A stretch of 64,000 nucleotides of DNA, from positions 150,819 to 214,818 of the forward strand of contig JASANH010000793.1 in NCBI GenBank assembly GCA_030248295.1, in the 5' to 3' direction. The translations under genes were made by a program, and so were the position numbers. This DNA comes from Mesodorylaimus sp. YZB2_4. Its lineage: Eukaryota; Nematoda; Enoplea; Dorylaimida; Dorylaimidae. Each line of letters begins with the position of its first letter. Positions within the stretch are counted from its first letter, which is position 1. The notes under the pieces are model-generated. The model had not been told where the DNA came from. It saw nothing but the letters and a program-made list of their open reading frames with translations, and made no database searches. Of the stretch, positions 12,423 through 60,997 are shown piece by piece.

Positions 12423-15400
12423 ATTTCAATGCCCAGGGACGAATAGAAACATTGTTCGAGATGTATAAATTTAGGAAATGGACGGATTGATATAGATTTT
12501 CAAATCAATAAAAATAATTCGCGAGTCCTTTTAAGGTCTGGTACACTTTATTTAGATTAGCACCAGTCGGAGCGGGGCCTCGGACTGCTTGTCCGAGATG
12601 AGGGGGTGCAATTGATATTGGACACCAGTCCGCGGCTAACAACGACGCCCATCAACAGTCTCTTCTGACCGCCTTCTCTTTGCCTGCTTAAGAACTTCTT
12701 CGAGTCCATCTACGGCGCGAGGGGGCCTAAAATATTGGAGGCCGACTTAAGAGATGAAGAAAACCGGAACGACTCGGGCCTCGTCTATTAAAAGGAGAAA
12801 GTTCGACCGGACGTCTCGCGGGGACGACACACCGTCGATGGCGTCTTGGACAAGCTAGTGGGGACGACGAACTGACCAAAGCGGATTGGGACGAATAAAT
12901 ATGCCCCGTAATTGAAAGCGAGAAGGTAGCCAAAGGGTGTGGAAATATTTTAGCCAAAAAACGAGAAAACCCCTGCGGCTTTGCTCGAAATTGATAAGGC
13001 AATATATTTGCACTTGTGCAAAATTTATTTCTTCTTCTTTTTGACCAATAGGCCTTCAAATGCATTTATTAAAACTCGTCCATCATCGCCACACGACGCA
13101 ATCTCCTTTTACGGCACCCAGCTAGTCAGGCGGTCGTAAAAACTTATGCTAGCTCAGGTCCCGCCTGCCCGAGCGCCGATTTGTGGGACTATGGTCCAGG
13201 GATGAATAAATCAATGAATCGAGCTGACCGTGTCGAAAAGGCGTCTTTTCTTGAATGAGACGAAAAATGAGCCGGCAGCACTCTTTTTTGCCTCTTAGAG
13301 AAGCAAGAAATCTTATTCTTTTTTCTTGATCAGCTTCTTTGCCCACTTGTAAGCCGCCGCTTTAGTTTTGGCTTCCAAATCAGATGCGAGTGTTTGTGTA
13401 GCCGGGGGCGATACGGGGCTCGGATAAGGAACGAGCGCCGTCGAACAGCACCTTTATTGCCCCGGGCTAGGCAGAGGGTAATGAGAGGAAAGAGTTTCTT
13501 ATCTTCACTTCGCAGCCAAACGAGCAAGAACAAGTCAACTTGGATGCGTATAGGCCGAGCAACAACTTGCTCCCATCGGGCGTATGGGGTTTCTTTTTTC
13601 GTTTTTAGCAACCCTTCCTGGCTGCCTTTAGCCAACAGCTGTCACACAAATTATGCAGTGCGGAAGGGTGCATTGGATTTTAAGACACCGCCCGCCTGAT
13701 CCTCGACTAAGCTTTCCAAAAAGCACCCCCGCCACGGACGGGTGGTCGTGAGAGTGAAACCGGATAAAAGGCACCTATGCCTTGTTCACTGACGTCAATT
13801 CAGCTGCGCCGTGGCTTTAGGGGTGCTTTTATGCTAGCACCCCTCTTCGATATCATCACGTACACCCTCGGCTAGTTTCAGCGCTGATTTTGCTGGCTTC
13901 GATACTGGCTGCCTGCTTCTTCCAAGCACTTTTGTCAAATCGAGGCAGTTTGAACGTACAAGTTGGAAAGAATAAACACTCTCTCGTTTCTTGTTTGCTT
14001 TTTTGTCAATTTGTCGACTAGGGTGGATTGTCAGAACGCACAGTTATTTAGTTTTTTCTACTGCACTGTAGGTGTACGTAGCAGTAAGTCTACTGCAGGT
14101 GCAAGCTAATTATTCCAAACTCGGCTGTTTGTCAAAAATTGTGCGAAATGCGATGTTCAATTCCAAAGGTGACAAATTTAAATTTCAAAATAAAAGCACA
14201 ATGAAGTCAAAAGCGCATGCATATTTTCTGACTGTATCTACAGTAGGTAGCTATCAATCAATACTCACTAAATTCCCCTTTTAGTGCCCTCGCATAGCTT
14301 CCCCTCCTCAGACCTGTTTGAATAATAACATATATTGGATATTAATCAAGGGTTACTGTATTTTCTGTTTTATACACTGTACGTGTGACTACTTTCCGCT
14401 TATATCTGGCTTGACAATCCTGCCTGTATTTTTTCCTCCACTTTTATGAGATGCCGTATGGACTAAAAATGCTTTACAGCTGATACTTTTTATGGTTTTA
14501 AAAAATATTTACGACCATATTCGTCTTTCAACCGATGTTCTGCTTACAGTATACTTGCGCCTTTCAGAAACTTCCAACGTACGAAGGTCACGCAATGACC
14601 GAACGTGATTGAAACTGGCATGATTTTGGGAAAGTATTTGCGTAAACGAGACTGCTTTGCGTCATATAAGCCGTGTCTACGTCAGCAAAGTCGTAGGTTG
14701 CACAAGGTGTTTATTTACGACTGCTTCAAGTCGGAAACAGCAGTCAAGCGGTTTCGTCGAATGCTCATTTCCGGCAACAGTTGACGTGTGAATGGTTGAC
14801 AATAAATGCTTGTTTATGGCATCTCGAGTTTGGTAGAAGCGAATGGAAAGCGTCCACTAAATCCAGAAATAAAAGCAAGATCTGATGATTCCTCTTTGAT
14901 GCCAGCAGAAAATTTTTGATCCCCCCCCGTTCAAACATGAAAGCCAATCAGCACCCGTCTAGCTGTCTGAGATTGAAAAGAATGTGTGGTGGTGTATCCG
15001 ATTGCAACCATGAACGTGACCCTTGTCCGTCTGCCAAAGAACATATCCCAGAACCAGCTGCCTTCACTTTTCCATCTCGATTTCTTGTTGTTTTTCAAAA
15101 TGAATCAAGCAAAATGCGCGCCCGTCGCGATTCTATTACCAAGAACAGCAGTCAATATTTTTCACGTGGAAGCAAAGATGAGCCAAACACCTGATGTAAA
15201 ATGGGCACCTGAGGCAGAAGCGGATAGATGTCAATGACGAGGAGGAAGCTATTTTTGAAAGTGCGGAAACAAACGATAGAAAAAAAGGTATCCTAAAGAA
15301 ATCCAAGCCATATTCTGGATTTCAGATAAACGAGCTTCAACTTCGCCAATTCATTTTTCTGGCTAACATTTTCCGTTACTCTTTGTACGCGTGACAAAGA

Positions 15401-16249
15401 TGCTGAAAATGTGCATGTGGCAGAGAGGTCATTTTTAATGAGCGCTTTGCAAGAGCCATTTGCAAGTCTATCTGCTGCATTTTATAAAGTTATTGCAAGG
15501 TTCTATATTTCCGTCCATGCCCAGTGGGTCTGCATAGTTATACATACGTATACTGAAAAATGTTCCCAAAAATTTACAAACTGCTATAAGCCACTTATTT
15601 GCACGATTTGCACTCGACTAAGCTCATTAAGAGATTCTAATAAAAGCTAATGCTGCAAAAGAACGCGGAATTTAAAAAATCTCCCTCAATTTACTGGCTA
15701 CGATGCACTGAGCGCACACTTTTGCAAAAATGAAATCATTTTGAATAAGGAAAGCGCGCTTTTTGCGTTTGGATTCTCTTAATCGAATGTTCTGTCCTGA
15801 TCTTCACGCGGCAGGTAAGTTTGATATCGTTGAAAAAGCCACTTTAAAAAAGTATTTTCGCAGGTTATCTACAGTGTGGTTTCCTTCTCCTATCTTTAGC
15901 CTATGGTGCCAAAAATATCATTTTGAATTAAAAATATCTCTGTGCGCAGGAAAAAACTTTGGTACTCTGCAGCTGAAGGAGAAATTTGTTACAAGAAAAG
16001 CAATTTTCGGTTTTTTTCCAAGAGCATTTCTAGCATAGCTGGGGAATCCTGAGGGCTTGGTGTGAGAGGAATTTTGAAAAGCTATGCCCAGTTTTTGGGG
16101 CATAGCAAACTCATACAACTACAACGATTGTTTTGGGACATCGCAGAATGCGGATAAGTAAAAACGATTTAAAAAAATGCATCACGGAAAATGCCTTTCT
16201 TGTGCCCAAGTGTTATTAGGGCATGTGATAGTTCCACACAAGCACTTAC
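12423..16249. other. Region between the two AChE genes
   Basis: About 3.8 kb. The part from 12.54 to 13.9 kb is GC-richer than its surroundings and probably holds the promoter and 5' leader of AChE gene 1; TGACGTCAATTCA (a CRE-type palindrome plus flank) lies at 13790-13802. I looked on the minus strand for the C-terminal exons expected for AChE gene 2 (WPxYT and GPRRxxCxFW coding) and found none. Confidence 0.55.
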
Positions 16250-19200
16250 CCAGTTCGAGCGAAATTGGCCCAATATCTCATAAATCTTCTGGCCAATTCC
16301 TTCTCCTCTTGAGTGTAAGCATAATCTCTCGTATTCAATGGTTCGCCGAAGATGAAATTAATTTCATAGCCATGCAAGACGCCCATCCAAGCTGGCCACG
16401 TCTGCTGAGTGGATCGATGGGTAAAATAATAATAAAACACGGCCCCGCCCTTTTCCTCGTACAACTCGGCGAATTCGTTGACACTGCACGTGAAATGATA
16501 ATCGCCTAGCATTTTGTCCAATGCTTGCTGCCTTCTTTGCGCATTTCCGGGCAATGTCCAATCTCTATATTCGAAAAATATAGCTTTTTGCACAGCAGGA
16601 TTTTTTTTTAATTTTTCCGGCAATAATTGTTTAGCCGCTTGTTCAAAAAGTGCATCGCTGGTTAGAAATTCATCTTTCGTAAATAATTCATCCTTTGAAA
16701 AAATATTTGCTGCATGATAAATTATAAAATATATACTTTCATCAAAATTTGTACCAACTAAAAGTTCGGAACGTTTGAAATTACCGCGTAAAAGTGAAAT
16801 ACGCGGTTCTTCTATGAGAAAATAATGATCGACCACGGGTGTCCATGGGAAATCATTGAATTCGAATGTTACCCACTCTTTTTCTAATAATATTTCTGGT
16901 TCCAGATTCATTAGACAATTATAAAGTTTATCAATATTTGGGCGAACATCGCGAATCGTAACGTTGCAACCACAACCTGAAAAGACCAGCGTTGCCAGAT
17001 GCAAAATTGAAAACTCGCTGCCAGGGACCTGAAAATCCGCTAAAAATCCGCTGTATATGTTAAAAAATCCGCTGAAAAATTCGCTAAAAGTTTGTCGCAG
17101 AACTGAGCTATTTTAGCCAATAAAACATGGAATGCAGCAGATAGCGGCATATGAGGAGACGTTTACTAACATATACTCAATTGTTGTACCATCTACTACA
17201 TTTTTCAAGGATCGTTTATACCAGGCGAGGGGTTCGAAGGCCAGGGGAAGGGAAAAAAGAAAGTTTTTTATACCAAACAAGGGGGACAGAAGAAAGGGGA
17301 ACTGCCATTGAGACCCACACTCGTGCCAAAGGCTGAACGACTGTGGTTAGGCCTACTGTAACACCGACTGAGCACTCAACTATGAATTTGTTGTCAAATA
17401 CGGTCTTTTATTCAAAATCGTAGACCCATAGTCGAAATTATTGTGTTGCCTACCCCATTCCTTGTCAACAATGACCCTTCAGACCTCAACGCACGAACAA
17501 AACTGTCCCAAGAGTCGCAGAAAAATGGGCGAGCTGTTTAAAAAACCTTCCCGCACAGGCTACTTGAACATAGATTGGCAAAAATCCGCTAGAATCCGCT
17601 GAAAACCCCAAAATTAGCTGCAAACCCCAAAATTAGCTGCAAATTCCGCTAAAACACTCAATCCGCTGTTTTTCCCGCCGGCGGACAAAAAATCCGCCAG
17701 ACCTAGCGGATTCTAGCTGCATCTGGCAACGCTGGAAAAGACACCACGCCCTTCCAGTGTTATAATGGTTAGGAAAAGAAGGGGTATTTTCACCAAATAT
17801 ACAGAATCTATGCAAGCAATCACGTCAGTTTTTTCAAATATCGTAGTACAGTATGCAAACAACAAGTGGCGAAAGCACTGAAGTAAAAGAGAGACCATTT
17901 CAGAAACACTGTAAAATTTGAATTTCCCACCGACCGCTTATAACAGTTTTAAAATTCGAAAAATCCCACACTTATTGTTAGAGCTCCGTGTGGGCGCGTG
18001 TAGGGACGAGACGACGACAGAAACGAGTCAGGTTTTTGTTCTTGAAAAGAAAACGGGATAGTCAGAAAATAAGGAAAAATAAAAAAGAAGACAGCAAATT
18101 CCAAATTCAACGCGCGCACAGACTTAGGAGTGTACAACATCTTCTCCATGTAAAACTCATAAATGGCTTACAGCGGGAAATTCAAATGTTGGGTAGCACC
18201 GGCCCCATGAAGTGGTCAAGTACTCTTGGATCATGCTTTATGTTGTGAGCGCAATATGAAGCGAGTAGGTTGTGCAAATATTGATAATTTCTTGTATAAT
18301 GTGCCTCATCAAGCTCGAGTGCGCATACCTGCGTTTAGAGGTGTAGTAAGTTGTAAACAGTAGCATGATCACTGATTACTGGCTGATTGGAGGCAGGTAC
18401 AGCACGACAGTTATAACTAACTATTTGAGAGGGCCCTAGACCAGTAATCAGAGGGGTGCGGGTTCGATTCCTACTTGGGGCACGAGATTTTTCTTTTCCG
18501 CAAGTATTTCTTAAGAAAGTTCACATACTGATAGGGCTGCTATATCTGCAGCATTTGATGTTCTTGCACACCTATACTTAGTGCGTATATCAAAACAGGG
18601 ACCAGATATTACTGTATGAAGAGGAGAATACAAGGTTACGAACTCTTTCTTACAATTAGCTAAACCCCCACAAAAAAATTTATGGAAAGGCGCATACAGC
18701 AACCTATTTTGATGCGCAGTAAAAACATGAAATGACCCTGGATAAGCGAAGATGCACTGAACCTGTTTGAAAAGCTCAAAGTTCTTTCTGAATTTGATTA
18801 TTTCATGCATTATATGTTTTTTTCCCCGTGCGCAATGTGCAGCCCGTGCACAGTGCCGGTGGATCGCGCTTTTAAAAGTGCTTGGCTTCCGAGAATATAG
18901 CATTGCAGTACTAAATTCAAGACTAGATTCGCGGATACTTTTTGTCAGAGTCAATAAAAGTTGACCAAGTTTGTACACAAAAAGTTCACTTACTTTCGCT
19001 TAGGAATAATGCTCTTTCCATGAGAATTTCAGGTGGTTCCATGGCCCAAGGTGCCAAAGCTGACCCACTTTGTAATATAGCTCTTTTAAAATAAGGTTGA
19101 CTCAGTGGCGAGAGCACATGCATGCTGACGCTGGCTGCACCAGCACTTTCGCCAAATATGGTCACTTCAGATGGCAAGCCACCGAAATGATGAATATTAT

Positions 19201-19849
19201 CACGAACCCATTTCAACGCTTCCAATTGGTCCAGCATGCCCATATTGCCTGGCACCTCGGGTCTGTTGAGGTAGAGGAATCCAAATAGGGTCACTCGATA
19301 ATTCATAGATACCACAATCACATTTTCCTCACTGCATAATATTTTGCCGTCATACACGTCCAATGTGGATGTACCCGACCAAAAGCCCCCACCGAATATC
19401 CAAACCATAACCGCCAATTTTCTTCCTACTTCGAACCGTCCAGGAATCCACACATTCAAATATAAACAATCTTCACTTTTGTTTGTATTAGCATTCCACA
19501 TTTCAGCCCCCTTGAAATTCGTGAAATACGAATCTGGTGTCTGATGACAACTATTGGGCAAAACAGTTGCTGAAAAAATATGTTTCCATGGTTTTTTGGC
19601 CACCGGTGGTCGGAAACGAAGATTGCCGATTGGGGGCTCGGCGAATGGAATGCCCAAATATTCTGTTACTAATTTGCCATTCGTTCCAATGGTCTCCTTG
19701 CCGTAGAGTCGACTGCCGTCATTCAAGGTGATAATGGGTGATAAGCGATTGGTGGCTGTTTGCGCCGAGCAGTAAGAGGAGAAGAGTGACAAGAACAGAG
19801 GCAAGAATGGGTTTGGTATGGCGACTGTCATCTTTGGATCAAGAGCCAA
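16250..19849 (-). CDS. Acetylcholinesterase paralogue, 3' exons missing (AChE gene 2)
   Basis: Two minus-strand exons are visible: 19849-18994 (donor GAAA|GTAAGT, phase 1) and 16976-16250 (acceptor TTTTCAG, donor CTGG|GTAAGTGC, phase 2). They encode about 527 residues: a signal peptide ([16 protein letters not shown]), Trp118 in GAEMWNAN, oxyanion GGGF, nucleophile Ser235 in FGESAG, Glu365 in NFDES and His487 in VLHGYE. All catalytic residues are present and the frame is clean. The intron at position 286 is absent from AChE gene 1. The last donor has the same phase and position as that of gene 1, yet no WPAYT exon or tail exon exists before gene 1 begins. The transcript may be truncated, may use an unrecognised tail, or may splice across gene 1 into its exons at 9614 and 8493. 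One pocket-region residue differs (VVDHYF where gene 1 has VVDGHF). Confidence 0.9.
16987..17734. mobile_element. hAT-like MITE inserted at a splice acceptor
   Basis: 748-bp element with perfect 17-bp terminal inverted repeats, CAGCGTTGCCAGATGCA at 16987-17003 and its complement at 17718-17734. It is flanked by the 8-bp direct repeat GAAAAGAC (16979-16986 and 17735-17742). An 8-bp duplication with CAG...CTG ends is typical of the hAT superfamily. Both ends are rich in AATCCGCTAAAA-type subterminal repeats (17030-17095, 17580-17715), likely transposase binding sites. No transposase is encoded, so it is non-autonomous. It lies in the only visible intron of AChE gene 2, two bases before the acceptor AG. 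Confidence 0.88.
18313..18350 (+). repeat. LINE 3'-end fragment
   Basis: CTCGAGTGCGCATACC then TGCGTTTAGAGG matches the 3' terminal consensus shared with the LINE at 24.1 kb and the fragments at 37.1 and 38.4 kb. Confidence 0.5.
18405..18485 (+). repeat. tRNA-derived SINE or tRNA pseudogene
   Basis: A B box GGTTCGATTCC (18459-18469) is preceded by CTAGACCAGTAATCAGAGG, which resembles an anticodon arm with AGTAATC (Thr/AGT-like). The acceptor stem does not pair and the T stem has a mismatch, so it is not a functional tRNA. Confidence 0.45.
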
Positions 19850-42584: not shown

Positions 42585-42766
42585 TGTAGAGGTATTGACT
42601 AACCTAGACTAGTTCTTGATTTGCATTGATACTAACCTGCTGTTTTGTGTGTGCCTTTGGTGGCCCTCTCATGATCAGTCGGGAATCGGGCCGCCTTAGT
42701 AAACGGCTGCTTTCGTATCGCGTCCTGGGTCGCCCCTCTATCGCGTGGCAGGGCGGCCAGTTCACA
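42585..42766 (+). repeat. 5' LTR of gypsy element (182 bp)
   Basis: Starts TGTAGAGGTATTGAC, ends GGCCAGTTCACA. It differs from the 3' LTR at two positions only (TTTGGTGG here, TTCGGGGG there). Preceded by the target duplication TAAT (42581-42584). Confidence 0.96.
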
Positions 42767-42767
42767 G

Positions 42768-42782
42768 TGGTGCGTCGGCCCG
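42768..42782 (+). promoter_or_regulatory. Primer binding site, tRNA-Gly-like
   Basis: TGGTGCGTCGGCC begins one base after the LTR and is complementary to a tRNA 3' end GGCCGACGCACCA, as found in glycine tRNAs with GCC anticodon. The tRNA identity is inferred from general knowledge of tRNA-Gly ends. Confidence 0.7.
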
Positions 42783-43110
42783 GTTATCATCAGATACTGC
42801 TTCTGCTTTTTTCGTTTCAGGCCACTCGATATCCTACGGCCGGGGCTGTTCTATCGATCGAGAGAATCCACGAAATCGCTGAAATCGATTCTACCGTCAC
42901 CTCAAGTCTCGCGTTCACCTTGGGCCGATATTTTTGGTATCGCCCGTCGATCGTCTTGCTCTTAACAGCCGGTGGCTGGCTGTTCCCAGGTATGACAAGA
43001 ATTTCTTACTGAGCGTAGTGGCGACCAGTGAGGCGCAGGCTATTTCGGGAAGACCTAACCTATCAGCGCTGGACTATTATCAGCTTGTTTTTGGCATTAC
43101 TCCGGCGTCA

Positions 43111-46100
43111 ATGGCGCACGCTCTGGATCTCAGTATGAACGCCAGGTTGGCAGGACAGGCTCAGCAGGCCGAGGGAGATGGCGATGGTTCGAATATCGTG
43201 CTAGGTCCTGATGACGTAGACCTGGGCCAAGAGTATTTTCTTCGGGACTTGCATCGTTTACCTTTGCGGTACCTCGTTTACTACTGCGAGCATAGGGGCA
43301 TCTCTATGGACCATCTCTTAGACAGTTCTCGTGTGGGTCGTGATGAATTGATTGTGCGTATCCGTGCACAGGTTCGAGATGCTTTGCTTCGAATTAATCC
43401 GGTTCTTCCAGTGAATGATTCCGTTTTGGATGGGTGTAGGTTCGATATCTTGTACTCGGAAGCACCAGCACACGATAGCCAGCCGATTCGTGATCGCTAT
43501 CCATCGCAAGTTAGTAGTGTCGCACATACTCCCGCTCGTGACTCCTTGATGAACCTGAAAGGCGACTTGTTGGGTTCAGATCAAGAGCGTCTTGGGGACC
43601 AGGCTCAGTTTCGAGAAGAACAGCCAGTGCGTACGTCACCACCCGTCACGCGTCGTGAGGCCGACCAGCTCCGCCCATCGATCGAAGAGAACATACGTCA
43701 GTTGACCCAGCTTCATCAGGCTCATTGTAAGCAGAAGGAACTCGAGAGTGAAATTCGTGATTTGAAAGCTCGTTTGGCTCAACAGCAGGTTGCTGATCAG
43801 CGCAGCAGTAGTCGTGGGTCGGACAACAAAGATCGCATACCACATTCGCAGCTTCCAGAATCGTTGCTTCCGTATGTTCTTCAGCCAACAGTGGCTACGC
43901 AACAGCCGAAGGCTGATCCGTCGAGTGTACCTACAGCATCAGTTGCTCCTAAATCGTTCCGCCCAATCAAGCCAGAGGTTCCTCCTTTCGAGAATCTACC
44001 TACGCAAGACTTCAGGGGATGGCTGGTTGCTTATGAGAATGGCGCATCCATGATGGAGTGGACCGATAATGATCGTGTTCGCGGATTGTACTTGTATCTC
44101 CGAGGTCAACCATTGATTGATTTCTCTGAATGGCCGGATAGCGAGCGATCTGGTTGGAAAGTGGTTCGAGACCGTCTTCGTCGCTTGTACATCCGCGAGG
44201 ACACAGAACAGACTCGCGTCGATGCATTTCGTAACAAGAAGCAGGGTCCATCCGAGTCAGTTCAAGAATTTGCATCACAGCTTCAGACCTTGGCTTCGAA
44301 AGCATATCCGGATGTGCCGTCATCAGTTCGTGACAAAATGATTCGGGACACCATGCGTGTGAATCTTCGCTCAGATATTGCTGACCGGGTTGCACAGGAT
44401 CGAATACGTAACAATTACACGCTCGATGAGTTAATAAATGCAGCACGACATTGGGAATCATATTTGAAATCACGTCACAGTGCGTCATCAGCTTCGGCGC
44501 AGATGATTTTGCCACCTTCGTATGGTTCTCCAGCAGCACAGCTTGATGCAGTTTCTGGCGATATCTCATCTGCACAGTATTGTCGACAAGTTGGTGCTGA
44601 TCGGCAGCAACCGTTGGGTTACCAGCATTGTTTTACGTGTAATCGACCTGGTCACGTCAGTCGAAACTGCCCTAATCAGCGACAACCTCCTCCGCCGCTT
44701 CATCCGACATGCAGGTACTGCAAACAAACGGGTCACGTCATCGACCAGTGCCCTTCCCGACGGCCTTGCCCAGAGTGTAATCAGTTTGGTCACAGTCGAC
44801 GTTCTTGTCCTCATTCGCGTGGTACCCAGGGGAGACGAGACTCGTGCGTTTATACGTCCGATGGACGAGCCTCTTCGTATCAGCGCTATCAACAACCAGC
44901 TCCGTCTCATCAGCCTACAGCATCGGCACCTCCTCTGGATGCTGTCGAAACGCAGCAATCGGGTCGTTTGAGCATGTTTTCTGGCGTCGTACGTCCACCG
45001 CAGTCTTCTCGAGTACCAGCTTCTTTGGCACAAGCAGTCATCTCGCATACGTATGGTGTCAATTATGAGAAATCATCTGGTGCTGTGGCAAAGTTGGTCT
45101 CGTCTCCAGAAGTGTCAGTTCTGATCAATGGTGCCTCTGTCGTAGCCTTAATCGATACTGGCGCTGAGCTTTCATTGGTCCACGTCGACGTCTTACATCG
45201 TGGAAACGCGCCTATCAAGTTGTTCAAGGGTTTGTGGAGTTGCAAAGCAGCAACTGGAGACGAAGTTCCACTTTTGGGTGTTGCCTTAGTTGGTCTAACA
45301 TTCGGCGAAATGACAATTGAATGGCCCGTCCACGTCATGTGCGGTAGTTATCGCGGTGCAATTATTGGCTCCGATTTTTTGCATGCATTTGGTGCTGAAA
45401 TTTCTTACGGTTCAAGTACCGTGCGCTGCACGAAAGTACCTCTGGAAGGGGAGTCAGTTCTATTTGTGCAACCAGATTTGTGTCGTGCATCAGCTTATGT
45501 TCGTCTCATGCGGCTGTCAGCTGAACCATTGTCGATACCTCCTCGCAGTCAAAAGATTTTCACGGCTACAGTTGACTCAGCGTTGAAAGAATCGTTGGTT
45601 TTCACACCTGATCCATCGTTTGAGAAGCAGTATGGCGTGGCCATACCTACCGAATTAGTTGAACCGGACTCTAATGGGCACATTCCAATATGCATCACCA
45701 ATTTTCGTGACTCAGAGTTGCTCGTTTCGGATAACATGCGCTGTAGTACAGTGGAGCCAGCAGCGTATATCGAAGGGGAGCATTTGAATGTGAATAGGGA
45801 TGTGAGCCTACCTCCAAAGTCGGTCTTGGCTCTTCTTCGTTCGCGTTTTGGACTTGACGCCATCACAAGGTCGTCAGTGACTGCTCTTACGCGCGGTGCG
45901 CAGACTCGTTTATGTTCTGGCGAAGACGACACGGCGGAACGACACGCTCAAGAACTGGCGCAACGTTATCAGGAACCACCAAAGTCAGTATCTCCGCCTG
46001 AGGTTCAGGACTCGACTCGAGTTGATCATCTTCGTCCAAAATTTGATATTTCATCTGATTGCTTGACTGAGGAGGAGCGCGTTAAGATCTCGAACTTGCT

Positions 46101-49100
46101 ATGTCGAAACGCGGATATCTTTGCTGAATCAGATGTAGACTTGGGCTGCATGCCTGGCGTTCACCATTACATCGATACTGGTGACGCAGCGCCCATTCGA
46201 CGATCACCATATCGTGTACCGCAAGCCAAACGTGAAGAGCTACAACGTCAAATCGCAGATGGCTTAAGGACAGGTGTAATGCAGCACTCATGTAGTGATT
46301 GGGCAGCTCCGGCTATCTTGGTTAAGAAAGCTGACTCATCTTGGCGTTTTTGCGTCGATTACAGAGCTCTAAATGCGGTGACCAAGAAAGACGTTTTCCC
46401 CTTGCCACGTATCGAAGATTTGTTGGATCGCTTGCAGGGAAGTGTCATCTTTAGCGTTTGTGATATGCAATCCGGGTACTGGCAAATTCCTTTAGACCCG
46501 CGATCTCGTGAGAAAACAGCCTTCATCTGTGAATTTGGTTTGTTCGAATGGACTCGCATGCCTTTTGGCCTGACCAATGCTCCAGCCACTTTTGCTCGTG
46601 CGGTGGATTTCCTACTAGCTGGTCTGACATGGAGACAATGTCTGGCGTATTTGGATGATATTATCATATTTTCACAATCTGTCGATCATCATATGGAAGA
46701 TCTACAAGTGGTATTTGACCGTATTCGAGGGGCTAACTTGAAGCTGAAGCCTACCAAATGCCACTTTGGGCGCGCTGAAGTACCATTTCTAGGCCACATT
46801 GTCAGTCGTCATGGAATTCGGCCGGATCCAGAAACTACAGCACCTCTTCGTAATATGCCGGAACCAACCGACAGCAGGACATTGAGTACGTTCCTGGGGT
46901 TGGCTAACCATTATCGTCGTTTTGTCAAGGGATTTGCTTCGCTCGCGGCGCCCTTGTTTCACCTTCAGAAAAAGAAAGTGCCTTTCGTGTGGACTGAAGA
47001 ATGTTCCCGATCTTTTGTCACCCTTCGCGACATCTTACTCTCAGAACCTATTTTGCGATTCCCTGATTTCAAGTTACCGTTTTCACTCAGCACGGATGCA
47101 TCAGGAGATGGTTTGGGCGCGGTTTTGGAACAATACCATCCAGAAGACCCTAACACCCGGTGGGTAGTCGCATACGCTTCGAGAGCTCTAATCCCAGCTG
47201 AGAAGAACTACAGTGCCACAGATCGGGAAGCTCGGGCTGTCTTCTTTGGCGTTAAGAAGTTTCGCACTTATCTGTTCGGCAGACATTTCACAGTGTACAC
47301 TGATCATCGTGCATTGACTTCTTGGCATACGACTAAGGAGTTTGAAGATAGTCCACGTTGGGGTCGTTACATCGAACGCTTGCAAGGCTATGATTTTGAA
47401 GTTGTTCATCGACCGGGTCATCAAAACTGTCATGCCGACGGCTTATCTCGTCTTCCGCTTGACCACCCGTCTTCGAGCACTCATCATATCGAAAAACTGT
47501 CAGACAGTGTTCACGCCAGAGTGGCGCCTTTGGACTTTGTACCAGTCGTGGAGGAGAGCGATATAGGACTGGACGCTAGAGCATCTGACGACGAACTTGC
47601 CTTCTTGGATGACGCGTTTTTGAAGCGAGAGCAACGTTCTGACGTTTTTACAAATCGTATTGTCACGTTTTTGGAGAAGGGGGAAGACAGGGAGCGAGAT
47701 ACTGAGATGAAAAAATTGGCGGAATCGTATTTTCTGCAAGATGGGCCTGGTTCAGTCTTGCGTTTTCGTCTCACACATCGTCGACGTGGTCGCGTGATTG
47801 AAGGTTCGGCCATTGCTCTGCCTGCTAGCTTGCAACAGGAGGTGTTGGCAGCATTTCACAACGATCCACTGGCTGGACACATGGGAGAAGATCGTACTTA
47901 CTCACGTCTGGAAGGCAGAGTGTATTGGCCTTCAATGCGTAAAGATGTACACCAATACTGCAAGTCGTGCCTCATCTGTGCTCGTAGAAAGCAACCTCAT
48001 CGCTGGGGTAAAGCTCCTTTGGTTTCCATACCCGTTGGTGCTCCGTTCGAACGTGTCAGCATGGACATAGTCGGTCCTCTGAAGACGTCACGATTGGGAA
48101 ATACATACATTCTTGTCCTTATCGATGCGTTCACAAAATGGCCAGAGGCTTTTGCAATGGCAGATATGCGTGCAGAGACGGTAGCTCGTATCTTTGTTGA
48201 ACACATGGTTTGCCGGTTTGGATGCCCGCGTTCAATCTTGACCGACCTGGGTTCACAGTTTACGTCAGATCTCATGAAGAACATATGTCGATTTTTGAAT
48301 ATTCGCAAGTTGTCCACCACGGCCTATCATCCACAATGTGACGGGCAAGTGGAACGATATAACAAAGTGTTGATCGACTGCATCGCCGTCTACACGAGTG
48401 CGCATCAAGAAGACTGGGATGTCTTCATTCCTTTTGCTTTGTTCGCATTTCGCACCAGCGTGCATTCGTCGACTGGGTATTCGCCAGCTCAACTCGTGTA
48501 TGGTCGTGATTTGTCGTTTCCTATTGACCGTGTCTTTGGATTGGACGGAACTCAACAGTATTTGCATATAGATTATGTGACGCAGTTAAAGCAGCAGTTG
48601 ACAGACGCATACAGGATTGTAACGGAAGAAATCGCAAAGTCACAGCAAGCTCAAGCCAAGCAGTATAACAAATCAGTTCATCGAATACCATTCCAGATTG
48701 GATCATTGGTGATGGTCAAGAGAAACGCAGCGCCGCGAGGCTTGTCGACAAAATTACTGGATCGATTCTTGGGGCCTTATAGAATTCTTGCAATGCCTTC
48801 GCCTGTAACCGCGTGCATTCGTCCTCTACTTCAGCCTGGATCGGATAAGTTGGTTCACGTAAACCAATTGCAGCTGTTTCGTGGAGACGTGTCTGGTCGA
48901 GTACAGACACCCAGTGGCGCTGCGTCAGCATCAAGACAGGATGCGATCACGGATCATGAGACTTGCGTTGTTAGCGATCAAGACGAATGGGTAGATGTTG
49001 GAGGGGAGGAAGGAGGCATTTCTACACCTGGTGGGTTGACAGCCTTTCCTCCTGGCTCGTTAGTTTGGGCGAAGATGAGACATGTACCATGGTGGCCTGC

Positions 49101-49344
49101 TCGTGTTTTGCCAGAATCGGAAGCTTTGGGGCCGAAGCCGCGTACAAGGGGACCATGGGTTTTGGTGTACTTTTTCAACGATCGGAATCGACAGGCGTAT
49201 GTTCATCAGAATGACGTCGAGGAATATTTCGCCAACAAGGAGAAACACTCGTCGAGGAAGCCTAATATTCTCGTGGCTATGGCTGAGTTGGAACAGTTCG
49301 CAGAGTCTCAAGCGCGCAATGCAGTATCGGAGGCTTTGGAGTAA
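43111..49344 (+). CDS. Ty3/gypsy Gag-Pol polyprotein with C-terminal PWWP domain
   Basis: One uninterrupted frame; the first in-frame ATG at 43111 gives 2,077 residues. Order: a gag region with the retrotransposon capsid motif (FRGWLVAYEN, QTRVDAFRNKKQGPSESVQEF), three CCHC zinc knuckles (about 507-571: CFTCNRPGHVSRNC, CRYCKQTGHVIDQC, CPECNQFGHSRRSC), and aspartic protease LIDTGAE (Asp682). Reverse transcriptase has FCVDYRALN, MPFGLTNAPATF and YLDD at 1180-1183; RNase H has STDASGDGLGAVL and TDHRAL. Integrase has an HHCC finger from His1583 and a catalytic triad Asp1652, Asp1712, Glu1748 (D-D-35-E). About 230 residues later comes GSLVWAKMRHVPWWPARVLP (PWWP at 1993-1996), GPWVLVYFFND and AYVHQNDVEEYF, a full PWWP fold with aromatic-cage residues. 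There is no gag-pol frameshift and no env. The ORF is GC-richer than the surrounding DNA. Confidence 0.95.
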   Translation: MAHALDLSMNARLAGQAQQAEGDGDGSNIVLGPDDVDLGQEYFLRDLHRLPLRYLVYYCEHRGISMDHLLDSSRVGRDELIVRIRAQVRDALLRINPVLPVNDSVLDGCRFDILYSEAPAHDSQPIRDRYPSQVSSVAHTPARDSLMNLKGDLLGSDQERLGDQAQFREEQPVRTSPPVTRREADQLRPSIEENIRQLTQLHQAHCKQKELESEIRDLKARLAQQQVADQRSSSRGSDNKDRIPHSQLPESLLPYVLQPTVATQQPKADPSSVPTASVAPKSFRPIKPEVPPFENLPTQDFRGWLVAYENGASMMEWTDNDRVRGLYLYLRGQPLIDFSEWPDSERSGWKVVRDRLRRLYIREDTEQTRVDAFRNKKQGPSESVQEFASQLQTLASKAYPDVPSSVRDKMIRDTMRVNLRSDIADRVAQDRIRNNYTLDELINAARHWESYLKSRHSASSASAQMILPPSYGSPAAQLDAVSGDISSAQYCRQVGADRQQPLGYQHCFTCNRPGHVSRNCPNQRQPPPPLHPTCRYCKQTGHVIDQCPSRRPCPECNQFGHSRRSCPHSRGTQGRRDSCVYTSDGRASSYQRYQQPAPSHQPTASAPPLDAVETQQSGRLSMFSGVVRPPQSSRVPASLAQAVISHTYGVNYEKSSGAVAKLVSSPEVSVLINGASVVALIDTGAELSLVHVDVLHRGNAPIKLFKGLWSCKAATGDEVPLLGVALVGLTFGEMTIEWPVHVMCGSYRGAIIGSDFLHAFGAEISYGSSTVRCTKVPLEGESVLFVQPDLCRASAYVRLMRLSAEPLSIPPRSQKIFTATVDSALKESLVFTPDPSFEKQYGVAIPTELVEPDSNGHIPICITNFRDSELLVSDNMRCSTVEPAAYIEGEHLNVNRDVSLPPKSVLALLRSRFGLDAITRSSVTALTRGAQTRLCSGEDDTAERHAQELAQRYQEPPKSVSPPEVQDSTRVDHLRPKFDISSDCLTEEERVKISNLLCRNADIFAESDVDLGCMPGVHHYIDTGDAAPIRRSPYRVPQAKREELQRQIADGLRTGVMQHSCSDWAAPAILVKKADSSWRFCVDYRALNAVTKKDVFPLPRIEDLLDRLQGSVIFSVCDMQSGYWQIPLDPRSREKTAFICEFGLFEWTRMPFGLTNAPATFARAVDFLLAGLTWRQCLAYLDDIIIFSQSVDHHMEDLQVVFDRIRGANLKLKPTKCHFGRAEVPFLGHIVSRHGIRPDPETTAPLRNMPEPTDSRTLSTFLGLANHYRRFVKGFASLAAPLFHLQKKKVPFVWTEECSRSFVTLRDILLSEPILRFPDFKLPFSLSTDASGDGLGAVLEQYHPEDPNTRWVVAYASRALIPAEKNYSATDREARAVFFGVKKFRTYLFGRHFTVYTDHRALTSWHTTKEFEDSPRWGRYIERLQGYDFEVVHRPGHQNCHADGLSRLPLDHPSSSTHHIEKLSDSVHARVAPLDFVPVVEESDIGLDARASDDELAFLDDAFLKREQRSDVFTNRIVTFLEKGEDRERDTEMKKLAESYFLQDGPGSVLRFRLTHRRRGRVIEGSAIALPASLQQEVLAAFHNDPLAGHMGEDRTYSRLEGRVYWPSMRKDVHQYCKSCLICARRKQPHRWGKAPLVSIPVGAPFERVSMDIVGPLKTSRLGNTYILVLIDAFTKWPEAFAMADMRAETVARIFVEHMVCRFGCPRSILTDLGSQFTSDLMKNICRFLNIRKLSTTAYHPQCDGQVERYNKVLIDCIAVYTSAHQEDWDVFIPFALFAFRTSVHSSTGYSPAQLVYGRDLSFPIDRVFGLDGTQQYLHIDYVTQLKQQLTDAYRIVTEEIAKSQQAQAKQYNKSVHRIPFQIGSLVMVKRNAAPRGLSTKLLDRFLGPYRILAMPSPVTACIRPLLQPGSDKLVHVNQLQLFRGDVSGRVQTPSGAASASRQDAITDHETCVVSDQDEWVDVGGEEGGISTPGGLTAFPPGSLVWAKMRHVPWWPARVLPESEALGPKPRTRGPWVLVYFFNDRNRQAYVHQNDVEEYFANKEKHSSRKPNILVAMAELEQFAESQARNAVSEALE

Positions 49345-49776
49345 ACCTTAGTTCATTGTGGCGGCTAGCATCTCGTTTTTTTTTGTGTTTTGGTTTTTCT
49401 TGATTTACTAACGCATTATTTTTCTTTGCAGGCAACTTCTGTTTCTCTTTTAGTGCGAGTCTTGCCCGCTGTGTTGTTAGTGACGCCTGGAAGGCGCCAT
49501 GTTCAGTATAAGCCCTCAGCATCCGTCAGCGGTTCTGATCGCAGTTCGGCTGCGACGACAATCTGGTATTCCTCGTCGCCGACTGATCTCCATATGTTAC
49601 GCCCGTCGGGCGGATCTTTCGATTCGGTAGCCGTCATCCATCACGTAGTCGGTCACTGTGCCTTGTCATCGTGGTGTGATCGTTGGTGATCTAGTGATAT
49701 TGGTTTTTTTCTTTTTCTTTTTCTTTCTGCCCTGATTCGGAGCACCCAGGTGTGTGCTCATCTGGGGACGGGGCAA
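49345..49776 (+). other. 3' untranslated region and polypurine tract of gypsy element
   Basis: 432 bases between the stop and the 3' LTR. GGGGACGGGGCAA at 49764-49776 is the polypurine tract priming plus-strand synthesis. A TTTTTCTTTGCAG acceptor-like site at 49419-49431 pairs with a possible donor GA|GTAAACC overlapping the stop codon, but the resulting reading frame closes quickly. Confidence 0.7.
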
Positions 49777-49958
49777 TGTAGAGGTATTGACTAACCTAGA
49801 CTAGTTCTTGATTTGCATTGATACTAACCTGCTGTTTTGTGTGTGCCTTCGGGGGCCCTCTCATGATCAGTCGGGAATCGGGCCGCCTTAGTAAACGGCT
49901 GCTTTCGTATCGCGTCCTGGGTCGCCCCTCTATCGCGTGGCAGGGCGGCCAGTTCACA
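49777..49958 (+). repeat. 3' LTR of gypsy element (182 bp)
   Basis: Same length and ends as the 5' LTR, two mismatches. Followed by the target duplication TAAT at 49959-49962, matching 42581-42584. Confidence 0.96.
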
Positions 49959-51409: not shown

Positions 51410-54400
51410 ATGTCAAAGTAAAAAAAGTGTCAGAATCGTATGTTTTCAAAATTCTGTCAAAGTCAATATCAATGTCAAAAAAATTTTTGGCCTCAGTCAA
51501 AGTAAAAAATTTTTTGGGGGCCCTGTCAACATCAAAATCAAAGTCAAAGATGACGAGAGAGGACAAAAAATCTTGACATTTTGCGCACGCATTATTCAAA
51601 TCCATGAGCCAAGATAAAGAATTTACGCAGTGAGGGTTTTCCTGCCAATCTCTGTACATCGTTTCGAATCGCTCGATCCAATGTCGTGAATGTCGTTCCA
51701 AAACATGCTAAGCCGTTTCCTTACAGTTCCGTAAGAGATTTAAGTTACAGTTTGTGGTGACTGCTGGTTAGAGTAACGCGGGTTTTGTCTCAGTTTCACT
51801 AAATTTTTTTGAGAAGATAAAGTTATAATAAAAACCAAAACCACGTGCCAAAAGGAACAGGACACAACTGATGCCCTTCCGAATGCTAAGGAAGCGGAAA
51901 TAAGTCGTCAATACTGAAAAGATCATGTTCGGACTTTTAAAATGATTAGTAAAGCAAGATGGTCCACCCAGTGTTATGTTATGATGGTAAATGAAAAAGA
52001 ATTACAATGTAGATAAACAGTGCTTGTTGACCCCTGACTTTTTCCTTTTTGAACAAAACAAACTTCTACTCAAGCTTACTTAGCTTTGCAATTCCAAAGC
52101 TTATGAAGCAATCCACTCAGTAATCTGACCCAATCAAGGGTAGGCAATAGGAAGCTCGTGAGACTCAAGAATCAAGAACCAGAATGTGTGATTCAAGTAT
52201 TTCCAGGCAAAAAGACGCTCGCTTCTCACTGCGAACCACGCCCAAACTCATGTCAGAAATAAGATTCTTCATCACACGCCAGTTTATTCGAAGACTGGTT
52301 GCATGTACCAATCTAATGCATCTGCAGGTCAGACTGATTCCGGGAAGTCTCACAGCGCAGCAGCCTCACAACAATATTTCATTTGTGTTATCTCTCCACT
52401 CTGGTGACCTGCACAGTAAAATGTAGTCATTAGGGATAAATCGAGATTAAAGCAGTCCCAATCGGATCGGGATTGGGATTGGAATGTTGCATTTTTCTCT
52501 TTTTTTCGACAGTGAACCTATATTTCTCACTAAAGCACACTTTTTAGGCATCCGGATGCTTTAAAGCTTTTGCCATTTGTAATCATCATATACTCGTTTA
52601 AGCTGAAATTGATCAGTCATTTGCAGTTTCGACACACGTCCAGCAAGGTCAGCCTCGTGATCGCCGTTGTTTTCAGCCTCTGCACTGTCGTCTCCTCGAA
52701 CGATGACTGAGCCAATATCTTCTGCTTCCTCTGGCAAGATGTGATGCGATTTATCAGAGTGCACCTAGCGTGCTTATGCCTGTACATGTGCATAATCCTG
52801 ATGCCTCGATTCGGGATTGGAATTGGGATCGGGATCCAGACCTATCTTAAGTCGCCATCCACAAAACAATTTATCCACCAACTTGCTATCATTAGTTAAG
52901 CCAGTCAACTACCAAATTTTTGACCCACAAAACTTCTCCAGTGCATGGCACAAAACAGTGATAATGATCACTCCTGTCGTATATGTACCGTACCTCTTTG
53001 GACGCGCGGTTATGCTCACTGCATGTCTACCTGGCACTCTGCAACCAAATGAACCATGTGTAGGATCTGCTTTGACCAGTTAAAGGTTTAGTGTTTCAAA
53101 AAGATAGTTTACTCAAGCACGTCAGATTCATGTTGCTCCAAAAGACGACTGAACAAGATTGAGAAGTCGTCCTGTCCAACCAGACAGGCTCGGCCGTAGC
53201 CAACATCCGCCCCAAACTTGGGCGAAGGCTGTGAAAAGGAAGGAGGCATGCAAGCTACCTACCTGGTGGGACAAGGGACAAGTCTACATAGTCTCTTTTG
53301 AATTTTGCAAAAAGTCAACTTTAAGTCAATGTCAATGTCATACGTATATACAATAAATAGAAATGGCTAAAAGTGAGTGGTTTTCTTTGTTTCAATGAGT
53401 ATCTACGACTTTGTTGAGCTGTTCCCTGATAATTTTTGTGAATGATCAGCTCTATGGACCTAAAAATCGATTATGATCGATTCTTGGCGGATCATGATCG
53501 ATTTTATTGATTTCAAGCGATCTGTGTTGTCCGTATATGATTTGCAACTGTGTGTTTTCTATTACAGATGTTCAGAAACGTCAAAATATATCGGAATTAT
53601 TTGCTGGAAAGATTATTCAGCTGCACAAAAGCGGATACAAGTCGAAAAAAAATTGTCGAAGAATTGGAAAAAACCAAATCGAACGACGATTTCATACCAT
53701 CCGATCGAGCTATTCGGAAATTTTTGGCTAAATATGAGCGAACTGGATCCGTCAAGCGATTATCTGGCCAAGGACGACCTCGAAAATCCACCGATCGCGA
53801 CGATCGCCAGCTAACACGGATTGCGAAGACCAAACGAAAAAGTTCGCTCGGATCGATCGCGAAAGATTTCAGCGATTTATCCGTAATTTCGATCGGTAGG
53901 GACACTGTGCGTCGCCGACTAAAAAAAATTGGATATCAGCAGGTGTATCGATGCGCCAAGAAACAACTTATTAGCGAGAAGAATCGGAGAAATCGATTGA
54001 ATTGGTGTAAGGCAAATGTTGATCGGCAAATGGACTACTGGAACAGTGTTTGGTAGTCCGATGAATCTCGTTTTGACTTTGTTTCTGATCGCCCAGAAAA
54101 TTGTATCACAAGACTTGGGGAACGGTTTCGACCAGATTGCCTCCAAACCACGGTCAAACATGGCGGTGGTGGTCTGATGGTTTGGGGATCTTTTTCTGCG
54201 GCTGGTGTTGGTCCATTGCATCGAATTAGTAAAAAACTGTGCGAGCTGTCGATTACATCGATATTTTGAAGAAAAATTTGGTTCCGACGTTGAACAATCA
54301 TCCTCAAGGCATTTTCCAGCAAGATCAAGCGCCATGCCACGCGCCAAGTCGGTCAAGAAGTGGTTCGCGGATCGTAATATCGATTGGATCGATAATTGGC

Positions 54401-56770: not shown

Positions 56771-58254
56771 TTTGCATATGCCTCTCGGAAACTGCAGGAG
56801 CGCGGAAAACAACTGGCTCCCAAGTATCCTCCTAAACTAGTTCAACGTGTAGCTGATGCACGTGAATAGGAACACAAGAGAGGAACCACTCATTGCCTTG
56901 CTGATACACCGACGAAATTCTTTGTTGGCAAGGAGTTTCAGGGCTGAGCGTTTGCACATCGCGTGAACCAGGTATCAAGAAGAAAGTACGGTTTTCAGCC
57001 TCTACAGGAATCAAGGAACAAAATTTGTCACCTATGCTGTGATTCCAAAAAATTTGTGAAGCATTGATCAGATGGCAAGAGGAGACGAGTAGCGCCTGCC
57101 CAACAAATATGGCTGATATATCATCACGTTGAAAAGCGGCACGCGCCCCTAAGGTGGGATCGATTCTCAAGAGTTGCCATATGACATCCAATTGCTTCTG
57201 GCTTTCACGGAAAAGCTGCAACCATAGCTGACGAAAGCCATGCGTCACCAGATGAGTCAGTTTTCGTTCCAAAAATTGCTGCTTACTGTTTACTAGATCA
57301 AAAATTTCGCGAGGTGTCGCGTTTCGTGGAGCATAATCGCTAGGGCGCCAGGCAAAAACATTTAGGCGCACCAAAGGTCCTTGATCCGTCCGGGACACGC
57401 CTGCAGGTATGCACGAACTTCCTAGGGAGGGCCGTAACTTGCCAGCGAGGCTTAATACAATTTGCAACTCCTCAACAATCAAATGGTGCTCTACTACCGA
57501 GGCGTTAAACTGTCCCTCAAACTTATACTGGCATGGGTGGGTCAGATTCCGTGGATCCCAAATCAAGACTTCATCTTCAGTAGCACAATGCCCTGTGGAT
57601 GCATGACACCCTGCGGTACTCATCAAGTCGGAATGAAGCATATTATCGCCTGTTGTAAAAACCAGACCCTCCTTAATCACGAAATTCGAAACTGACTGGC
57701 AGTAGTCGTAGCAGCTAACTTTATGAGTAATTTTGTTTGGCATTTGGGGCACGTTTTTTATAATCGGTGGCAAAGTAGCTTCCATGACGCAGGTCTAGTA
57801 ACCTTCGTCTAGCATTTCATTCACTAGGATTTTGCATTGCATGTTACGTTCGTATTGTCTGGTTGTGGAATGTTTTCAATGACTGCCTGGGCTAGAAAAT
57901 GACATGCGTAATTTATTGCATATGTTATTGGTCAAATGTGCCGCGACATTTGTTTTCGAATCATGATGCTAATGAGCTCGCTATATCCTTGCGATGAAGT
58001 GCGATAAAGCGATTATTTTGTCGATTTGCAGTGCTTTGCGATACAACTATGTGAGATTACCTGTGCTGTGGGTGCAAGTTTTCACATGTCACAAGCAACT
58101 TTCGTTTTAGAATAGCTGGTTTAGACTGACCAGCTCATGGCGAATCTGTTTGGACAGTACAGTTTTCTGGCTCCCTTCTCAAAGCCTTGTCGTTTCCGAT
58201 TTCAGCGATTAGGTTTGGTTTGGAAATTGCGCCAGGTATGTACACGTGTCAGTT
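56771..58254 (-). repeat. Palindrome left arm (1.48 kb)
   Basis: Near-identical reverse complement of 58902-60386. The outer boundary is CATATGCAAA, the inner boundary CACGTGTCAGTT. The arms contain a U3-like LTR segment and the first part of env. Confidence 0.93.
56832..57785 (-). pseudogene. env: Retroelement envelope-like glycoprotein, left-arm copy, 3'-truncated
   Basis: A 317-codon minus-strand frame opens at 57785 in sequence that also occurs in the LTR-type repeat. It encodes a Cys-rich ectodomain (VSCYDYCQS, CHASTGHC, SSCIP, CHLINAS) with about six N-glycosylation sequons, and ends at TAG 56834-56832. The frame then lacks the membrane-anchor half, because homology stops 61 bases further on. 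Relative to the right-arm copy it differs by about four amino acids, and it has six rather than seven A in a run near the start, which keeps the upstream ATG in frame. The envelope identity rests on the membrane-anchored partner half seen in the right arm and on LTR association, not on a recognised family motif. Confidence 0.65.
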
Positions 58255-58901: not shown

Positions 58902-60386
58902 AACTGACACGTGTACATACCTGGCGCAATTTCCAAACCAAACCTAATCGCTGAAATCGGAAACGACAAGGCTTTGAGAAGGGAGCCAGAAAACTGTACT
59001 GTCCAAACAGATTTGCCATGAGCTGGTCAGTCTAAACCAGCTATTCTAAAACGAAAGTTGCTTGTGACATGTGAAAACTTGCACCCACAGCACAGGTAAT
59101 CTCACATAGTTGTATCGCAAAGCACTGCAAATCGGCAAAATAATCGCTTTATCGCACTTCATCGCAAGGATATAGCGACCTCATTAGCATCATGATTCGA
59201 AAACAAATGTCGCGGCACATTTGACCAATAACATATGCAATAAATTACGCATGTCATTTTCTAGCCCAGGCAGTCATTGAAAACATTCCACAACCAGACA
59301 ATACGAACGTAATATGCAATGCAAAATCCTAGTGAATGAAATGCTAGACGAAGGTTACTAGACCTGCGTCATGGAAGCTACTTTGCCACCGATTATAAAA
59401 AAACGTGCCCCAAATGCCAAACAAAATTACTCATAAAGTTAGCTGCTACGACTACTGCCAGTCAGTTTCGAATTTCGTGATTAAGGAGGGTCTGGTTTTT
59501 ACAACAGGCAATAATATGCTTCATTCCGACTTGATGAGTACCGCAGGATGTCATGCATCCACAGGGCATTGTGCTACTGAAAAAGAAGTCTTGATTTGGG
59601 ATCCACGGAATCTGACCCACCCATGCCAGTATAAGTTTGAGGGACAGTTTAACGCCACGGTAGTAGAGCACCATTTGATTGTTGAGGAGTTGCAAATTGT
59701 ATTAAGCCTCGCTGGCAAGTTACGGCCCTCCCTAGGAAGTTCGTGCATACCTGCAGGCGTGTCCCGGACGGATCAAGGACCTTTGGTGCGCCTAAATGTT
59801 TTTGCCTGGCGCCCTAGCGATTATGCTCCACGAAACGCGACACCTCGCGAAATTTTTGATCTAGTAAACAGTAAGCAGCAATTTTTGGAACGAAAACTGA
59901 CTCATCTGGTGACGCATGGCTTTCGTCAGCTATGGTTGCAGCTTTTCCGTGAAAGCCAGAAGCAATTGGATGTCATATGGCAACTCTTGAGAATCGATCC
60001 CACCTTAGGGGCGCGTGCCGCTTTTCAACGTGATGATATATCAGCCATATTTGTTGGGCAGGCGCTACTCGTCTCCTCTTGCCATCTGATCAATGCTTCA
60101 CAAATTTTTTGGAATCACAGCATAGGTGACAAATTTTGTTCCTTGATTCCTGTAGAGGCTGAAAACCGTACTTTCTTCTTGATACCTGGTTCACGCGATG
60201 TGCAAACGCTCAGCCCTGAAACTCCTTGCCAACAAAGAATTTCGTCGGTGTATCAGCAAGGCAATGAGTGGTTCCTCTCTGGTGTTCCTATTCACGTGCA
60301 TCAGCTACACGTTGAACTAGTTTAGGAGGATACTTGGGAGCCAGTTGTTTTCCGCGCTCCTGCAGTTTCCGAGAGGCATATGCAAA
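58902..60386 (+). repeat. Palindrome right arm (1.48 kb)
   Basis: Partner of 56771-58254. Its segment 59175-59398 recurs as a direct repeat at 61691-61918, inside the LTR that precedes gag. Confidence 0.93.
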
Positions 60387-60997
60387 TGGACTGGCCAATC
60401 TTCACATCCTTTTTGGACCATAGTGGCGCACTGCTTGTCATAGATCAACGTCTTAACCGCTTGATTAATCACACCGCAGCCATACCAGCTGACCCCGATG
60501 TGGTCAGGGCTGTTTTATTAGGTGCAGGCCAAGGCGTTGGCGCTACTATGAGAGGCTTAGGCCAAGGAGTCAGCAATATCTATCATGGCATTTCCAGCTC
60601 GGCAGTAGACTTGATTCACGGTTTGCTAGCTGGACCAGTCCAGTTTGTGGTGAATGTTTTAACTTTTGCCGTGGTAGTTGTAGGCATATGCATTCTATTA
60701 CTTTGGGTCTATCGTTTTGGGCTACCCCAATGTTTTCGAACCAGCAGTTCACAGGCAATGATCGATGCTGATGATCCTCCACCCACTCTTCCGAGGTCGA
60801 GAAGCGCTAGCCCAAGAGCTCCGCTCTCCTTCGCAACCGTGTTGGAGTACTCTCGCCTAAAGCCATGTACCCACGAAATTGCAGCAGATGATAAAGGAAT
60901 GGAATTACAGCCTTTAAAGGAAGGACCCGCTGTCATGATTGTAGAAACCTCTCATCCGCATGGGCCTCACCGGTTTATCGAAGTACAATTGCGATAG
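59414..60997 (+). pseudogene. env: Retroelement envelope-like glycoprotein, right-arm copy, with in-frame TAG
   Basis: The ectodomain half (59414-60322) ends at TAG 60323-60325. The same frame then continues without further stops through 60380-60997. The second half holds sequons near its start, a Gly-rich amphipathic stretch (GAGQGVGATMRGLGQG), a strong transmembrane helix (VVNVLTFAVVVVGICILLLW) and a roughly 95-residue Pro/Ser-rich cytoplasmic tail. This architecture fits a viral-type fusion glycoprotein of an LTR element. The Gly-rich segment before the anchor recalls class III proteins such as those of chuviruses, but this is only a resemblance. The upstream ATG used in the left arm is out of frame here because of one extra A. 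The TAG could be a mutation, a readthrough codon, or a true boundary between two proteins. Confidence 0.6.

Follow-up and report, generated by a model that had tools for sequence, protein, structure and literature searches.

Chromoviruses carry a chromatin-binding domain, the chromodomain, at the extreme C-terminus of their Ty3/gypsy integrase, past the GPY/F module, and PMC3605345 describes a role for this domain in targeting chromovirus integration. The same text distinguishes chromodomains with and without a full aromatic cage (groups I and II) and mentions some in which the first and the third aromatic of the cage are missing. In lentiviruses, a PWWP domain holds the integrase on nucleosomes, but it belongs to a host protein, LEDGF/p75, which acts in trans. 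Ginger1 transposases, as presented in PMC2836005, combine a gypsy-type integrase with OTU, Ulp1 or PHD domains. Here, we describe a long terminal repeat (LTR) retrotransposon of the Ty3/gypsy type (Metaviridae) whose integrase ends in a PWWP domain. It occupies positions 42585–49958 of a 64,000-nucleotide stretch of DNA (the window) from the nematode Mesodorylaimus sp. YZB2_4 (contig JASANH010000793.1, positions 150,819–214,818 of the forward strand). The position of the added domain is that of the chromovirus chromodomain, whereas the domain itself is a PWWP, carried in cis.

The last piece of the window polyprotein matched the PWWP profile PF00855 over residues 552–628 with 58.4 bits (E 1.1e-15). 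This is far above the cut-off of 25.6 and rules out a chance motif. The domain shares its reading frame with the reverse transcriptase, RNase H, H2C2 and rve domains, and its GSLVWAK motif starts 234 residues past the catalytic glutamate of the integrase, behind the GPY/F motif. A sequence-only reading of this DNA had placed PWWP motifs at the end of the integrase, in one frame and about 230 residues past that glutamate, which our results bear out. No Chromo match was found in the three polyprotein pieces scanned with Pfam.

Among PDB sequences searched with phmmer, the tail came closest to MSH6 (1.8e-8), NSD3 (7.1e-8) and LEDGF (1.1e-7), with HRP2 also among the nearest. We take the PWWP domains of these four proteins to be readers of methylated H3K36. 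The predicted fold lends weak support: with the single-sequence AlphaFold2 model of the tail (mean pLDDT 64.9, pTM 0.52), the first 39 of 50 Foldseek rows against PDB were PWWP domains (HDGF-related protein 3, E 0.05; LEDGF, 0.08), but none reached E <= 0.001, and a library of viral structure models held nothing comparable (best E 0.35). It is the sequence evidence on which we assign the domain. Sequence and, more weakly, predicted fold place the tail in one domain family with host PWWP proteins (MSH6, NSD3, the HDGF family, DNMT3B), from which it differs in being part of a retroelement polyprotein.

The element that carries this tail has a single gag-pol frame, open over 2,077 codons from the first ATG, or over 2,136 codons if read from a TTG at 42934, with the same end at 49344. 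The two LTRs, 182 bp each, start with TG, end with CA and differ by 2 mismatches, and both flanks carry the same 4-bp target-site duplication (TAAT). The open frame and the near-identical LTRs had both been pointed out before, together with the suggestion of recent activity, and the LTRs and target-site duplications are consistent with that suggestion.

To look beyond this copy, we searched the genome (145 Mb, 1,067 contigs) with profiles. At least 146 PF00855 matches above the cut-off were found; the number is a lower bound because 150 of 173 candidates were scored. In 41 of the 146, an rve match preceded the PWWP on the same strand by no more than 2.5 kb (40 at 599–751 bp, one at 2,430); an rve followed on the same strand in none and lay nearby on the opposite strand in two, with 150 of 526 rve candidates scored for this pairing. 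We read the surrounding DNA of 62 matches, that is, 42 plus 20 picked from those without a paired rve (frames of 86–401 aa). All 62 were element copies, as judged by an upstream integrase, a GPY/F sequence or a PWWP near-identical to a type having these. By motif there are at least ten PWWP types, for which we use letters of our own. Pfam analysis of ten open pieces from nine other types (F taken twice, D and D2 counted separately) recovered rve followed by PWWP within a single piece every time, and H2C2 in addition in nine. The further copies with the same tail that the sequence-only reading had asked for are thus present in this genome.

A search centred on the integrase gave a similar picture. 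With the window integrase core as query (E <= 1e-30; 133 matches scored, 728 candidates), a PWWP followed within 1.3 kb in 30 of the 33 copies at least 60% identical to it. The corresponding counts were 0/2 at 45–59% identity, 16/23 at 40–44%, 7/46 at 36–39% and 18/29 below that, which makes 71 of 133 overall, with 0 of 133 in the upstream control. The three close copies without a listed PWWP are C432, C47:293362 and C45:434187; the first lies on a contig that ends in frame directly before the PWWP. Elements without a PWWP coexist in the genome: C139, C53 and C28, whose C-termini we read, and C657, with a tail ending in YNLRPRTRQS.

We also observed integrase matches at a near-constant distance from contig ends (C78, C128, C174, C192, C538, C111, C123, C119, C435 and others). 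The two of these contigs that we read, C123 and C128, end at the same base within coding sequence, without a telomere repeat. We therefore reject a telomeric location and take the pattern to be, in all likelihood, a place where the assembly of a high-copy family broke off.

Selection on the tail was estimated from nine copy pairs as the ratio of non-synonymous to synonymous substitution rates (dN/dS, NG86 calculation). The PWWP domain gave 0.10 in A/B, where synonymous sites are near saturation, 0.09 (0.093) in D/D2 and 0.13 in A/A65 (11 synonymous and 6 non-synonymous changes). The linker before it gave 0.35–0.87 in A/C, A/A65, F/H and F/G. By these codon comparisons, the PWWP tail is under purifying selection. 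Target-site duplications were sought in 13 repeat-pair copies, leaving out L018, which starts at a contig end, and L022 and L027, which are partial pairs. Nine of the ten assessable copies (L013–L016, L020, L021, L029, L030, L032) had matching 4-bp duplications and LTR pairs 97.8–100% identical; inspection of the repeat-pair flanks of L019 revealed none.

The tail does not always keep pace with the integrase. Types F, G and H (L035, L045, L046) share 75.5–84.9% of their integrase residues but 31.6–45.3% of those in the PWWP, so the tail evolves faster, which may reflect fast change or exchange. In the integrase tree, D stands apart and A/B/C, J, F/G/H, I and K form one group (90/90) that includes C123, a family with a tail truncated where its contig stops. 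The tree of reverse transcriptase plus integrase, in which G, H and K have no reverse transcriptase, splits the PWWP elements into A/B/C/J, F/G/H/I/K and D at three separate positions, and its deep nodes are poorly supported. Both trees are poorly resolved and were built from sets other than a chromovirus reference set. A single PWWP clade, when forced, was not rejected (approximately unbiased test, p 0.80) and scored above the free search.

Outside this genome, 205 relatives of the integrase region were found among candidates of 796–2,534 aa, limits that follow from the length rule of the search. In the precomputed domains of the best 120 of these 205, PF00855 was absent, the chromodomain PF00385 occurred in 17 and a PHD in one (P0034, a gypsy-type integrase whose added domain is a PHD where the window element has a PWWP). 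The PWWP tail itself had no homologues at E <= 0.001 (38 candidates) or at E <= 10 (45 candidates), and the analysis identified no host gene as donor of the domain. Among the matches listed in the literature searched, seen in part and with subscription journals and Repbase outside its coverage, no PWWP-bearing retrotransposon is described, in agreement with the earlier remark that no such gypsy lineage was known; the closest idea among those described is the chromodomain. Thus, the PWWP-bearing Ty3/gypsy lineage is real, conserved, multi-copy and, so far as these searches show, undescribed.

What the domain might bind can be approached through its aromatic cage. The LEDGF cage consists of Met15, Tyr18, Trp21 and Phe44; according to PMC3663649, the Y18A mutation strongly reduces specificity for H3K36me3 nucleosomes while affecting affinity much less, and W21A and F44A abolish binding, possibly through misfolding. 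The window copy has Met, Val, Trp and Phe at the equivalent positions. The claim that its cage aromatics are intact therefore fails at the Tyr18 position, and the complete cage expected of a PWWP that reads methylated H3K36 is absent from this copy. The methyl-lysine preference of its subfamily is probably weakened or altered, because the Tyr18-type aromatic is missing.

Across the 62 rows that we aligned, an aromatic residue occupies the Trp21 position in 49 and the Phe44 position in 56. The complete Tyr18/Trp21/Phe44 triad is found in 8 rows, from subfamilies F and H, which are the likelier readers of methylated H3K36 since they keep it. Where the Tyr18 position is not aromatic, it is mostly Ile, Leu, His or Gln; the adjacent position 17 is aromatic in 36 rows and might serve as a substitute. 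The KPN stretch of the LEDGF alignment, which we take to contain LEDGF Lys70, is retained in the window copy. The loss of cage residues parallels that described for chromodomains in PMC3605345.

In our view, the PWWP tail probably works much like the chromodomain, as a nucleosome tether carried by the integrase, with a preference for methylated H3K36 that is specific to subfamilies and possibly weak; we put the probability of this reading at roughly 0.7. Gene order, LTRs and target-site duplications, the number of copies, conservation and purifying selection were observed directly. From them we infer that, once inside the nucleus, the PWWP of the intasome would use its DNA-binding face and pocket to dock on nucleosomes and would thereby bias the site of cDNA insertion, as the chromodomain does for chromoviruses. 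In the window subfamily, whose pocket has no Tyr18-type aromatic, docking would proceed with a weakened or altered methyl-lysine preference. The earlier proposal that the element has internalised the tethering function is well supported, as an inference, for a nucleosome tether, and is a hypothesis as regards the targeting of transcribed chromatin. Steering by H3K36me3 does not follow for this copy, since its Tyr18 is replaced by Val.

Several results weigh against this reading. Only 12 of the 62 rows have an aromatic residue at the Tyr18 position. The PWWP yielded a dN/dS value in three of the nine pairs, because the other six are saturated at synonymous sites, and in D/D2 the linker (0.149, from 9 changes) is under almost the same constraint as the PWWP (0.093). 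By a proxy of location taken from the contig index, elements with and without a PWWP (40 versus 110) did not differ significantly (p 0.11). Finally, we took the longest frames in the flanks of 8 copies, 16 in all, scanned 10 of them, belonging to 7 copies, and found a host-gene domain beside two of the seven, one of them below the cut-off, a figure that comes with no background rate.

Some of the same observations would fit a PWWP that is a general module for nucleosome or DNA affinity, in most subfamilies without methyl-lysine reading, which raises the efficiency of integration and does not choose sites. We regard this as a serious possibility, if somewhat short of even odds. In its favour, the triad is complete in 8 of the 62 rows only, the KPN stretch is kept in the window copy, and LEDGF Y18A retains most of its affinity while losing specificity (PMC3663649). 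Against it, aromatics persist at the Trp21 and Phe44 positions, although these are also residues of the core fold, and the triad is complete in F and H.

The model of the sequence-only reading, in which the tail of this subfamily reads H3K36me2/3 and steers insertion into gene bodies just as LEDGF does, is plausible but in our view less likely than not. Its closest solved sequences and the retained equivalents of Met15, Trp21 and Phe44 are in its favour. So is the setting of the window copy, which lies in DNA devoid of open coding frames and precedes, by about 0.8 kb, a frame at 50740 that resembles an ionotropic glutamate receptor (its Lig_chan domains score below the Pfam cut-off). An inverted paralogue close by runs uninterrupted through the equivalent place near 34613; because about 500 further bases also separate the two there, this represents an approximate empty site. 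As a single site, the window insertion has no bearing on site preference. The gene-body model is weakened by the missing Tyr18, replaced by Val here and by other non-aromatic residues in most rows, and the location proxies carry no conclusive signal for it.

It is less probable still that the PWWP serves another step, such as the multimerisation of integrase, retention in the nucleus or a contest with the host's own PWWP proteins that silence elements. Proteins and DNA are further ligands of PWWP domains (PMC3842248), and the divergence of the F/G/H tails (32–45% identity, against 76–85% in the integrase) resembles conflict or exchange; the location past GPY/F, however, matches that of the chromovirus chromodomain, and tethering is the simplest reading of it. 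That the tail is a one-off fusion or an assembly artefact can be discarded with near certainty, given at least 146 matches of at least ten types, the rve–PWWP pairing, the 30 of 33 close integrases, the target-site duplications and the purifying selection.

The layout of the tethering candidate is given in Table 1. LTRs, a target-site duplication, a primer binding site and a polypurine tract, the last two recognised by eye, agree with Metaviridae. So does the order gag, protease, reverse transcriptase, RNase H and integrase with H2C2, DDE and GPY/F, as found with Pfam (protease below the cut-off, GPY/F by eye).

Table 1. Features of the PWWP-bearing element, in window coordinates
Feature	Position	Strand	Evidence and remarks
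5′ LTR, TG...CA, 182 bp	42585..42766	+	99% direct repeat of 49777-49958; TAAT flank
Probable tRNA primer binding site	42768..42783	+	TGG start, one base past LTR; by eye; no tRNA assigned
gag-pol, one frame, 2,077 codons from first ATG	43111..49344	+	
CCHC zinc knuckles, gag nucleocapsid part	44626..44785 (end approximate)	+	PF00098 1.8e-9, two stretches, best 44626-44676
Aspartic protease, DTGAE	45112..45384	+	PF13975 4e-6, 27.8 bits, slightly below cut-off 28.2; PF00077 weak
Reverse transcriptase	46321..46803	+	PF00078 1.2e-35
RNase H	46990..47391	+	PF17919 3e-31; PF17917 7e-31
Integrase H2C2 zinc-binding domain	47821..47994	+	PF17921 7.2e-23
Integrase catalytic core (rve)	48040..48333	+	PF00665 1.6e-13; D, D, E by eye
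GPY/F module / integrase C-terminal SH3-like part	48700..48870	+	FLGPYRI by eye; PF24626, PF22938 weak, below cut-off
PWWP domain and C-terminal helices	49054..49341 (Pfam core 49054-49284)	+	PF00855 1.1e-15
Polypurine tract, directly 5′ of 3′ LTR	49763..49776	+	by eye
3′ LTR	49777..49958	+	repeat pair with 42585-42766

Elsewhere in the window, a gene for a viral-type fusion glycoprotein (Pfam Monjiviricetes_fusion, about 1e-11) is present in two inverted copies, at 56832–57785 on the minus strand and 59405–60997 on the plus strand. Next to the latter comes a frame in which a probable membrane segment was recognised by eye, and the two have the look of an envelope gene that was captured or is endogenous. 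A piece of a Tc1/mariner-type transposase lies at 53550–54056 on the plus strand (HTH_Tnp_Tc3_2, 1.6e-13), and tandem cholinesterase/carboxylesterase-like genes, identified by eye, span 10794–19849 on the minus strand. In another part of the genome, locus L078 (C268:117000-118300) has an integrase followed by a chromodomain match and is a second integrase with a chromatin-binding tail; we assume this integrase to be Polinton/Maverick-like.

As for the history of the family, we tentatively propose that a long-lived lineage internalised a PWWP domain and then diversified its pocket, so that coexisting subfamilies would read different nucleosome states and partition the chromatin, with the domain maybe exchanged or acquired repeatedly. 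If the tether is real, it would be a further natural coupling of integrase to nucleosomes, through a PWWP in cis, beside the chromodomain in cis and LEDGF in trans. Since subfamilies with complete and incomplete cages are present in one genome, the choice of landing site by a reader domain could be tested there through insertion maps. Additionally, these natural fusions of integrase and PWWP would offer a comparison for engineered tether fusions.

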